Source of the DNA: Clostridia bacterium
GTDB taxonomy: Bacteria; Bacillota; Clostridia; Oscillospirales; CAG-272
DNA length: 35,516 nucleotides
Assembly (NCBI GenBank): GCA_017463125.1
Contig: JAFTPV010000010.1
Span: 1-35,516 of the forward strand
Direction of reading: 5' to 3'
The translations under genes and the position numbers were made by a program. Under the pieces are notes generated by a model. That model worked only from the letters and a program-made list of their open reading frames with translations. It ran no database searches and was not told the DNA's origin. This document shows positions 9,966 through 13,327 of this stretch, one piece after another (within the stretch, counting starts at the first letter, position 1; each line of letters begins with the position of its first letter).

Positions 9966-11150
9966 TTAGATAGAGCCTACGATGTAGGGAGCCATGTCAG
10001 CTCTCTCCTGCGCGAGTCTTTCAGCCTCAGTAGCCTCTTCTGCCTCTCTCTGTGCCTTCTCGGCAGCACGGGCTTCAGCAGCAGCTGCACGCTCAGCCTC
10101 TTCAACAAGAGCACGGATAGAGAGCGCGAGCTTTCTGTTCTCGTCGTCGATCTCAACGATCTTAACGTCAACAACGTCGCCAACCTTAAGAACGTCAGAA
10201 GGAGCGTTTATTCTCTGGGTAGAGATTCTGGAGATGTGGATAAGACCGTCAACGTCCTCGTAAACCTCTGCAAATGCACCGAAGGGCATAAGAGAAACGA
10301 TCTTTGCGGAAACTACGTCACCCTCCTTGTACTGCTGTGTAAACTTATACCAGGAGTCCATCTCCTGCGTCTTGTAGCCAAGAGAAATTCTCTTCTTTTC
10401 TACGTCAAGCTCCTTGATGAATACGTCGATCTGCTGACCAACGGAAACAACCTGTGAGGGATGCTTAATTCTCTTCCAGGAAAGCTCGGTGTTGTGAACC
10501 ATACCGTCAACACCGCCGATATCAACGAACGCGCCGTAGTTAGTAAGATTTTTAACAGTACCCATAAAGTGCTGTCCAACCTCAAGGGTCGCCCAAACAG
10601 CCTCTTCAGCGGCACGCTTTTCTGCATTAATAATAACTTTGATAGAACCGAGAGCCTTCTTCTTCTGCGCGTCAAATTCGATGAGCTTTACTCTCTGGGT
10701 AGTACCTACGAGAGCGTTGAGGTCTCCGCCCTTTGCAACACCGGTCTGAGATGCGGGAATAAATACGTTATTTCCTTCATAAGCGAGAAGAACGCCGCCC
10801 TTGATAGCGGAAACGACCTTGCCCTCAAGGATTTCTCCGTTGTCATAAGCCTCCTTAATGACAACCCAGCTGTTATCAGCGTCAACTCTCTTCTTGGAAA
10901 CGGTAGCAAGACCCTTGCCGTCCTCGACACGAATAACAAATACCTCTACCTCATCGCCAACCTTGAACATATCAGCGAGCTTCGCGTTAGGATCGTCCGT
11001 GATCTGCTCTTTGGTGAGCACGCCGGTAAACTTGGCGCCAAGGTCGAGCTTTATCTCATTTTCACCGATGGTGAATACGGTACCGGTAACTGTTTCTCCT
11101 GTATGTAAAGTTTTGAGTGAGCCTTCCAGCATTTGACTAAAGTTTTCCAT
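9966..11150 (-). CDS. rpsA: Ribosomal protein S1-type protein, four S1 domains
   Basis: The 394-residue protein has four S1 RNA-binding domains at about residues 17-88, 105-172, 192-260 and 276-345, then an Ala/Glu-rich helical tail. Domains 3 and 4 are the most typical (VKNLTNYGAFVDIGGVDGMVH and SLMPFGAFAEVYEDVDGLIH). S1 proteins help bring mRNA to the 30S subunit. The start MENFSQMLEGSLKTLHTGE resembles the start of the S1 half in clostridial IspH-S1 fusion proteins. The frame is open upstream of ATG 11150 back to the ispH stop and encodes the missing end of IspH. A GGAGG lies 11 bases before ATG 11150, so separate initiation is possible. Confidence 0.9.
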   Translation of the reverse strand: MENFSQMLEGSLKTLHTGETVTGTVFTIGENEIKLDLGAKFTGVLTKEQITDDPNAKLADMFKVGDEVEVFVIRVEDGKGLATVSKKRVDADNSWVVIKEAYDNGEILEGKVVSAIKGGVLLAYEGNNVFIPASQTGVAKGGDLNALVGTTQRVKLIEFDAQKKKALGSIKVIINAEKRAAEEAVWATLEVGQHFMGTVKNLTNYGAFVDIGGVDGMVHNTELSWKRIKHPSQVVSVGQQIDVFIKELDVEKKRISLGYKTQEMDSWYKFTQQYKEGDVVSAKIVSLMPFGAFAEVYEDVDGLIHISRISTQRINAPSDVLKVGDVVDVKIVEIDDENRKLALSIRALVEEAERAAAAEARAAEKAQREAEEATEAERLAQERADMAPYIVGSI

Positions 11151-11207
11151 AGTTATAAAAACCTCCGTTATTATACCGTCGGGCGTGGAAGCACCCGCGG
11201 TTATTCA
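11151..11207 (-). other. In-frame TGA and stranded IspH C-terminal codons joining ispH to rpsA
   Basis: On the minus strand the ispH frame reads K-S-A-TGA (11207-11205), then continues in the same frame as I-T-A-G-A-S-T-P-D-G-I-I-T-E-V-F-I-T and into ATG 11150 of rpsA with no other stop. GITAGASTP is the conserved C-terminal motif of IspH, so TGA stands where Gly is expected; GGA to TGA is a single-base change. TGA is an ordinary stop elsewhere in this window, for example at 8913, 19695 and 34381. Confidence 0.9.
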
Positions 11208-12017
11208 TGCGCTCTTTGCGCTGTCAGGAAAATCAGTTTTAAGCTCTGCTGCCGATTCAATCCATTGAGTATGCGGACAAGCCTCACGGCACAGCTTGTA
11301 TAGCTTTTCCGTATTTGAGCTGTCCTTACCGCCAACGACTATCATAACGTCGGATTTATTTGCAAGCCTTATAGCTTCGTTCTGACGATTTTCAGTGACA
11401 TTACATATTGTATCAAAAATTTTCGCGTTTGTATATAGTTTTTTGAAAAATTTTTTAATTTTTATGAATTCCAACAAATTTTGAGTTGTTTGAGAGCATA
11501 AAATGGGTATTTTGCCCTCTAAATCCAGAGCCGTAGCTTCTTTGTAGCTCGTAATAATTGCCTTCTTGCCATAAGCATAGCTTATGATGCCTTGGGATTC
11601 AGGGTGGTCGTGTGAGCCGAAGAGTACGAAATAGGTGCATTCGTTGGTGTTTTCATCGGCAATTTTATGAATCCTTTTGACAGATGGGCAGGTCATATCA
11701 ATTACGGTAAAATTTGGGTGCGAGTCGGCAAGCGCCATAAGCTGCGAGTGAATTTCCTTTGTAATACCGTGAGTCCTTATTACAAGGGTTGTTGGCGACT
11801 CTTCGCCGTCGTCAAGAATTTCTTTGATTTCCGTCAGCGTTACGGAACGTACGCCCAGAGCTGCCAGGGACTCGTTATATATTCTGTTGTGAATCAAATG
11901 TCCAAGCGTGAAAATTCGCTCGTTTAATTTGCGCTCATTGATAAGACGCGTTATTTCCGCGTCAGCACGCTTAACACCCGGGCAGAAGCCCGAGCCCTTT
12001 GCTACCGTGATATTCAA
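11205..12017 (-). CDS. ispH: 4-hydroxy-3-methylbut-2-enyl diphosphate reductase, lacking its C-terminal motif
   Basis: IspH (LytB) performs the last step of the MEP isoprenoid pathway, reducing HMBPP to IPP and DMAPP with a [4Fe-4S] cluster. The 270-residue product keeps the three cluster cysteines (GSGFCPGVKRA, IDMTCPSVKRIH, TICNVTENRQ), active-site HPE (SHDHPESQG) and the diphosphate-binding SSN (KDSSNTEK). It ends at TGA before the ITAGAS segment, whose Ser also contacts the substrate in E. coli IspH. The remaining codons continue in frame into rpsA. The start is TTG 12017, overlapping the TGA of the cmk gene. The protein would be full-length only with read-through, so activity of the truncated form is doubtful. 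It may be a strain-specific nonsense mutation or a base error. Confidence 0.9.
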   Translation of the reverse strand: MNITVAKGSGFCPGVKRADAEITRLINERKLNERIFTLGHLIHNRIYNESLAALGVRSVTLTEIKEILDDGEESPTTLVIRTHGITKEIHSQLMALADSHPNFTVIDMTCPSVKRIHKIADENTNECTYFVLFGSHDHPESQGIISYAYGKKAIITSYKEATALDLEGKIPILCSQTTQNLLEFIKIKKFFKKLYTNAKIFDTICNVTENRQNEAIRLANKSDVMIVVGGKDSSNTEKLYKLCREACPHTQWIESAAELKTDFPDSAKSA

Positions 12018-13327
12018 CGCTTCTTGCCGCCCTTGCGCTTCGGTATGGGAGCAGGGAGGGAGGAGTAGTCACCCATTTCGACTACTGCGTTAAAGATTTT
12101 TTCGGTTGCGGCTCTATATTCTGCCGTACCGCCGTTCTCAAAGCCAAGCTCCGAATTTTTAATAACCTTACCGAAGATTACCTCGACGCGTTTTAAGAAG
12201 CCGTATCTGCCGCCCTTAATTTTTATGCACACGGGAAGCACGTCGCAGCCCGAATGGTAGGCGATAAGCCCTGCGCCGTGATGTATAGACGTTTTTGCGG
12301 GGTCAACGCCGGGGAATCTGTGTCCCTGCGGGAATATGGACAGCACCTTTCCTGCCTCTGCAGCGGCAACTGACGCTTTTATTGCTCCGACGTCACCGCT
12401 GCCTCTGTCAACCTTGATTGCACCCAGCGCTTTTACGATAGTGCCAAGCAGGGGAACGGAGAAAAGCTCCTTTTTAGCTACGAAGGTAAGCTGACGGGGG
12501 CATACCGCGCCTATCGAGATAACGTCAATCGCTCCGATATGGTTAGCACAGAGAATGAGTCCGCCGTCCATTGGTACGTTTTCGATCCCTGTGGCTTTAA
12601 CACGCATAACCAGCCTGTAAATAGGCGCGACTATGGGCTTTGCGAAGGAATAAAAGTTTCTGACCTTGGATTTTTTCTTAACGATCTTGAGAATGGACTT
12701 GCAGGTTTCCTCCTCCGTCATATCGGAGTTATCTATGAGTATCGCATCCTCTGCCTTGACGCAGGGCGCAACGGCGCGTGTGGAGTCGTTTTTATCCCTT
12801 TCGACCATCTCGTTATATACCTGCTCGTAGGACACCTCGCTGCCCTTTGCGAGAAGCTCCTTGTACCTGCGCTTTGCTCTTGCCTCTGCGGAGGCGGTGA
12901 GAAATATCTTTACCTCAGCGCTTGGGAGAATAACCGTGCCTATGTCACGGCCGTCCATTATTACGCTGTTTCGTTTAGCGGTGCTTCTCTGCGTTTCGAG
13001 CAGATATTCGCGCACCTCAGGGATAGCGCTGACGGCTGATGCCGCCATTGAAACCTCCGGAGTTCTGATAGCGTCACCCTTGTCCTCACCGTTAAGGAGT
13101 ATAACCTGTCTGCCGTCCTGAAATTTCAGTTCCAGCGTTATCTCGTCAAGCAGGGAAACGACAGTGCCATTGTCCTTGGGAGATACGCCCTTATTAAGTA
13201 CGTAAAGACCGATGTTTCGATAAAGAGCCCCTGTATCAACGTAAATGATTCCGAGCTCACGCGCCAACGCCTTGGCAACGCTGGATTTGCCGGCACCGCC
13301 GGGACCGTCTATTGCAATTCTAATCAT
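12014..13327 (-). CDS. cmk: Cytidylate kinase / lysophosphatidate acyltransferase (PlsC) fusion
   Basis: One 437-residue frame encodes two enzymes. Residues 1-218 are cytidylate kinase, which phosphorylates CMP and dCMP: Walker A GPGGAGKSS (8-16), DTGALYR (31-37) and the CMP-binding MDGRDIGT (124-131). Residues about 225-425 are a PlsC-type 1-acylglycerol-3-phosphate acyltransferase: catalytic NHIGAID (262-268, the NHx4D motif) and FPQGHR (332-337) in place of the usual FPEGTR. A basic tail ends the protein. In many Clostridia cmk and plsC are separate neighbours before ispH-S1, so the fusion follows existing gene order. The stop overlaps the TTG start of ispH by four bases. Confidence 0.92.
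   Translation of the reverse strand: MIRIAIDGPGGAGKSSVAKALARELGIIYVDTGALYRNIGLYVLNKGVSPKDNGTVVSLLDEITLELKFQDGRQVILLNGEDKGDAIRTPEVSMAASAVSAIPEVREYLLETQRSTAKRNSVIMDGRDIGTVILPSAEVKIFLTASAEARAKRRYKELLAKGSEVSYEQVYNEMVERDKNDSTRAVAPCVKAEDAILIDNSDMTEEETCKSILKIVKKKSKVRNFYSFAKPIVAPIYRLVMRVKATGIENVPMDGGLILCANHIGAIDVISIGAVCPRQLTFVAKKELFSVPLLGTIVKALGAIKVDRGSGDVGAIKASVAAAEAGKVLSIFPQGHRFPGVDPAKTSIHHGAGLIAYHSGCDVLPVCIKIKGGRYGFLKRVEVIFGKVIKNSELGFENGGTAEYRAATEKIFNAVVEMGDYSSLPAPIPKRKGGKKR

Follow-up and report, generated by a model that had tools for sequence, protein, structure and literature searches.

In-frame nesting of the ribosomal protein S1 gene rpsA at the end of ispH: a proposed reading of a clostridial locus with an isolated TGA

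The ispH-rpsA locus

The window, the whole stretch of DNA analyzed here, is 35,516 nucleotides long and comes from contig JAFTPV010000010.1 of a Clostridia bacterium (assembly GCA_017463125.1). On its minus strand, a cytidylate kinase-acyltransferase gene (12014-13327) is the 5′ neighbor of ispH (11205-12017), which, as judged from its open reading frame and motifs, starts with TTG, encodes 270 amino acids, and ends at a TGA (11205-11207) where the nearest relatives have GGA. Eighteen further codons (ITAGASTPDGIITEVFIT; 11151-11204, minus strand), identical in DNA sequence to those of the related genome G041, link ispH in frame to rpsA (9966-11150, minus strand), which begins with the ATG at 11150 and encodes 394 amino acids with four S1 domains. 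Past the TGA, the frame reads ITAGASTPDGIITEV into rpsA, and the next stop is the TAA at 9968-9966. IspH and S1 domains are adjacent and in the same frame; this frame is interrupted here by the TGA, while in most relatives it runs without interruption. The TTG start of ispH overlaps the stop codon of the cytidylate kinase-acyltransferase gene (TTGA, window positions 12014-12017, minus strand), an arrangement that suggests translational coupling.

A sequence-only reading of this DNA had described an ispH split by an in-frame TGA, with the frame open into rpsA. Both the sequence and a match to PF02401 that runs across the TGA (profile positions 1-266, one TGA inside) bear this out; when the ORF is cut at the TGA, the match covers only positions 1-241 of 267. 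The truncated ORF retains the HPE and SSN motifs of IspH as well as its three Cys, and is without the C-terminal ITAGASTP segment. Alignment to solved IspH structures, with E. coli residue numbering anchored on Cys12, places the AGAS serine at E. coli Ser269 and the TGA codon at Gly263. IspH ending at the TGA would lose the segment with the substrate-contacting serine, as had been proposed.

Candidate signals for rpsA lie inside ispH. A Shine-Dalgarno sequence, GGAGG (11162-11166, minus strand), is written within the ispH frame, and the rpsA ATG follows 11 nt later. Upstream of it, a candidate σ70-like promoter (11407-11435, minus strand) consists of TATACA (11435-11430), a spacer of 17 nt, and TACAAT (11412-11407), with an extended TG at 11415-11414. 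An A/T tract on the 5′ side of this promoter (11438-11464, minus strand) may be UP-element-like. Separately, a TATAAT at window positions 11170-11175 (minus strand) directly precedes the rpsA Shine-Dalgarno sequence (GGTATAATAACGGAGG); no -35 element was seen with it, and it recurs in several relatives. An Rfam scan of the window returned nothing at gathering scores, and a search of viral contigs with the ispH-rpsA junction gave no match.

The TGA in relatives and the constraint on ispH

We compared the locus across related genomes. In the host genus, ispH was found in 49 of 69 genomes, and a stop at the TGA codon was seen in the source genome alone. At this codon, the four nearest relatives (loci L013, L014, L009, and L021) have GGA, and the other relatives aligned have a codon for Gly, Ser, or Ala. 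From 5 bases before the TGA site to 121 bases after it, that site is the sole difference between the source genome (G000) and G041, although across the whole genes the two share only 73% (ispH) and 86% (rpsA) DNA identity. These comparisons bear out the earlier proposal that the locus is one base away from the fusion. Since the 54 bases from the TGA to the rpsA ATG equal those of G041 and code for the conserved end of IspH, the observation is more than chance.

Stops within ispH are rare. Across the class, where ispH was found in 106 of 118 genomes, a stop inside the ispH match occurred in the source genome alone. Within the host genus, 2 of 50 ispH matches contained internal stops, namely the source TGA and a TAG at another codon in genome G030 (locus L004, position 1777). 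This TAG arose independently, is in frame, and lies 309 nt before the embedded promoter of that locus; the promoter, Shine-Dalgarno sequence, and rpsA downstream of it are intact. Control genes from the same genus had no internal stops (0/68 ispG and 0/49 rpsA matches), a difference that is suggestive only.

Along the source branch, constraint on ispH has been normal. In a two-ratio codon model with 7 taxa (chosen from 11 that were parsed, G059 not among these), ω was 0.213 on the source branch and 0.238 elsewhere (2ΔlnL 0.15), and ω = 1 on the source ispH branch was rejected (2ΔlnL 25.4). Pseudogene decay of ispH thus found no support in the branch test. The MEP partner ispG is intact in the source genome. 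Neither a second ispH nor a mevalonate pathway, both raised by the sequence-only reading, came to light: the source genome (91.8% complete) contains no second ispH, and HMG-CoA synthase, the sole mevalonate enzyme sought, had no match in the 69 genus genomes. Together, the normal constraint, the intact ispG, the single ispH, and the missing HMG-CoA synthase indicate that ispH either functioned until recently or does so even now.

We also considered whether the genus is losing ispH. Of the 69 genomes, 20 lacked ispH, 20 lacked rpsA (E up to 1e-40), 18 lacked both, and 3 lacked ispG. As ispH and rpsA are missing together in 18 genomes, a specific loss of ispH was rejected. The ispH-rpsA locus seems to drop out mostly as a block, probably during binning.

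From these comparisons, the TGA would most likely be an isolated base error, a minor allele, or a very recent nonsense mutation. Because IspH is normally indispensable, any of these is favored over a settled state. Such a state, in which the TGA is real and fixed, functional IspH has recently been lost, isoprenoids come from an outside source or a bypass, and S1 is made from internal signals, strikes us as unlikely. It would accommodate the sequence as given, the intact S1 signals, and the independent TAG in a second genus member, but is at odds with the retention of ispG, the unmatched HMG-CoA synthase, the normal constraint on the source branch, and the absence of any further stop in ispH. 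It does gain from the quality of the assembly: the 35 ABC-domain matches in the source genome are all free of stops, which argues against an assembly that is poor throughout and hence against a base error.

Start and promoter signals of rpsA within ispH

To evaluate the signals inside ispH, we compared observed counts with those expected when codons are recoded synonymously so that the protein is preserved. GGAGG followed by ATG is kept in all 82 distinct fused junctions, against 20.5 expected. This holds in the host genus (30/30 versus 8.85), in the family (25/25 versus 7.21), and in the class (27/27 versus 4.47). In the fused genes, the motif reads GGAGGT. The spacing ranges from 5 to 14 nt and is 11 nt, a longish distance, in 78 junctions. 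Before the GAG stands a codon for K, E, T, M, Q, L, or R, yet this codon ends in G in every fused junction, and the Glu codon itself is GAG in 82 of 82 junctions versus 45% elsewhere. Thus, a Shine-Dalgarno sequence and an in-frame internal start codon are conserved beyond what the protein demands. The 82 junctions exclude duplicates (L001, L111, L112, and L114) and repeated junctions (L024, L063, and L124), and L050, L061, L070, and L142 also stand outside them; by eye, L050, L061, and L070 share the Shine-Dalgarno sequence and the ATG. The sequence-only reading had offered the GGAGG before 11150 as a site where S1 could re-initiate after a tolerated nonsense mutation. A usable start does lie there, but its conservation in 82 of 82 fused junctions means that it is not a rescue.

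Loci in which the two genes are not fused are consistent with this picture. At four loci, the two genes overlap but are read in different frames, and S1 starts at the same GGAGGT plus ATG. These loci represent about two events, as L028 and L116 (G035 and G049) are near-identical and L131 and L142 belong to one family. In all of them, ITAGASTP is complete in ispH, and the ispH stop falls shortly 3′ of the rpsA ATG. Relatives with a true stop and a complete, separate IspH, which the sequence-only reading had held would count against a broken fusion, therefore exist, but their stop follows the ITAGASTP motif. The Shine-Dalgarno-ATG pair was found inside ispH at none of the five loci where rpsA is separate (L151 and L155) or unseen (L148, L149, and L150, which lack any S1 match over some 1.2-1.3 kb). 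The ispH of L148 has GGAGG at the junction position, and the ATG is absent.

The second signal is the embedded promoter. When synonymous conservation was measured along the two genes, the top three of 45 bins covered the junction and codons 181-195 of ispH, the latter being where the candidate promoter lies. Two bins in rpsA ranked next, and then ispH codons 196-210. The pattern T[AG]TACA-N17-TACAAT, which was defined after inspecting these same loci, occurs at all 30 distinct loci of the genus, where recoding predicts 0.25, and at 25 of 27 distinct family loci, where it predicts 0.66, with L019 and L151 outside the count. The promoter letters are thus conserved beyond protein constraint in the genus and family. 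In other families of the class, the strict pattern was found at 0 of 29 loci, as it was at 0 of 4 control loci, which include L155, where rpsA is a separate gene; an extended -10 occurred at 8 of the 29 (3.16 expected). Of the 61 loci carrying the promoter, 45 place the -10 element 256 nt before the rpsA ATG, as does the source genome. A whole-genome scan for the promoter pattern plus ATG, counting matches wherever they are placed, scored 206 of 246 family genomes and 2 with a reversed-pattern control; ispH was found in 228 of the same 246. By consensus alone, the embedded promoter is weak, as a consensus-only search of the region gave 3 sites compared to 2.0 expected from shuffles, and the argument for it comes from conservation. 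As the loci are related and are mostly best-scoring matches, none of these counts is independent. In this sample, the S1 start signal appears to be class-wide, while the promoter appears to be a trait of the host family.

One locus of the host family has a different arrangement. In L155 (G088), where ispH and rpsA are separate, the gap between them (1266-1463) contains TATACA-N17-TAGAAT with TG before the second hexamer. This promoter-like site lies 168 nt, and a GGAGG 10 nt, before the rpsA ATG, and the ispH is without the embedded promoter form. Although a single case, this is what a signal set displaced out of ispH would look like.

It is quite improbable, in our estimation, that the GGAGG, the ATG, and the promoter-like letters are by-products of protein conservation and codon bias, with S1 made only as a fusion. 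TIC is part of the IspH cluster site, EV is common at the end of IspH, and roughly one recoding in four retains the Shine-Dalgarno-ATG pair, yet the observed counts for both signals are far above the recoding expectation. Moreover, a D-to-G change at L004 leaves TACAAT intact, the frame-overlapping loci are forced to use the S1 start, and the L155 signals stand between separate genes.

Reading of the locus and known systems

We examined whether the TGA could be translated. A tRNA-Sec search of the source genome returned 11 matches, none above the family cut-off, and ARAGORN types all 11 as ordinary tRNAs (Gly, Ser, Leu, Phe, Arg, and His). Selenocysteine insertion at the TGA thus found no support: this genome, at 91.8% complete, has no tRNA-Sec above cut-off. 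Among 40 tRNA hits of the source genome, one of which ARAGORN did not recognize, a TCA anticodon was absent. A weak tRNA-like match, L110 (G000:C25:10828-10891), goes unrecognized by ARAGORN. Since tRNA-Trp, tRNA-Ala, and tRNA-Ile were not found among the typed hits, the tRNA set is incomplete; these three are probably in missing or collapsed regions. RF2 scores over its cut-off in the source genome, and TGA terminates six other listed ORFs of the window, including the adjacent cytidylate kinase gene, which has Pfam support, in keeping with the earlier view that the genetic code as a whole is unaltered. Reassignment of UGA to Gly or Trp found no support: RF2 is present and no TCA tRNA was identified (the Trp tRNA itself was not found). 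A scan of GTDB r220 for a TGA in this motif, with a pattern limited to TCN serine and S-T/A-P forms and possibly excluding the source genome, gave 5 matches, none in ispH.

Programmed read-through or recoding of the TGA to yield the fusion, an option that the sequence-only reading had listed, found no positive support and is very improbable: the open frame and the 18 codons identical to those of G041 are compatible with it, but an rpsA leader predicts that identity equally, the tRNA searches (of an incomplete set), RF2, and the GTDB r220 scan speak against it, and a near-cognate Trp is unlikely to fit a site that holds Gly, Ser, or Ala.

A model that accommodates these data, to which we assign a probability of roughly 0.7, is that rpsA in the host family is a complete gene nested in the end of ispH and sharing its frame, and that the TGA is isolated and not recoded. 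Under this model, three signals would belong to rpsA itself: a promoter inside ispH some 260 nt upstream (a feature of the host family), a Shine-Dalgarno sequence formed by ispH codons, and an ATG. IspH-S1 would come from the long frame and free S1 from the internal signals. In the source genome, a change of GGA to TGA would stop IspH with 18 codons still to go to the S1 start, so that on paper neither the fusion nor the final active-site segment of IspH remains. S1 would be untouched, since the TGA would fall within the untranslated leader of the S1 transcript. The sequence, its conservation, and the constraint are observed; promoter use, free S1, and the origin of the base we infer.

If rpsA is nested in this way, free S1 should be made whatever happens to ispH, and a self-contained rpsA would permit breaks in ispH or in the frame without loss of the ribosomal protein. 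As frame-split relatives exist, the IspH-S1 fusion is evidently dispensable. Going further, and with less confidence, we lean toward the view that the clostridial IspH-S1 "fusion" is two superposed genes, with most S1 made free from an internal start (and, in the host family, from a strong promoter inside ispH) and the fusion a minor or regulated product. On this view, the source TGA and the frame-split relatives are cases in which S1 is retained although the fusion is gone. Should free S1 come from the internal signals, S1 dosage need not follow IspH, the role of the IspH-S1 hybrid needs rethinking, and many genome annotations miss a separate S1 start and, in the host family, a promoter.

In E. 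coli, the cmk-rpsA operon has rpsA promoters both before and within cmk. The likeness lies in an rpsA promoter inside the preceding gene; in E. coli, however, the genes are separate, whereas here the reading frames are joined. Other internal promoters occur in C. ljungdahlii operons (PMC6203783), and the portions available of PMC5348791, PMC6203783, and PMC3603445 do not settle whether rpsA is nested.

The only paper on the IspH-S1 fusion that our literature search returned is PMC4746011, and reports of nested rpsA signals were not found in the texts covered. The available text of PMC4746011 describes the IspH-RPS1 fusion as a "Rosetta stone" protein, a genuine hybrid that connects isoprenoid synthesis with the ribosome, and handles the product as one hybrid protein; the words "internal," "start codon," "Shine," and "promoter" are absent from its main text. 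That fusion has the same two domains and four S1 repeats as our locus, in one frame as in the relatives, while in the source genome the frame is cut by the TGA.

Initiation at internal in-frame starts is known from Cas11b (PMC11899642) and RpnS (PMC10327210), as far as the accessible parts of those papers describe it. As in those systems, the shorter product here would begin within the longer frame and be read in the same frame. Unlike Cas11b and RpnS, the product encoded within is a ribosomal protein, which in the host family apparently has a promoter of its own as well.
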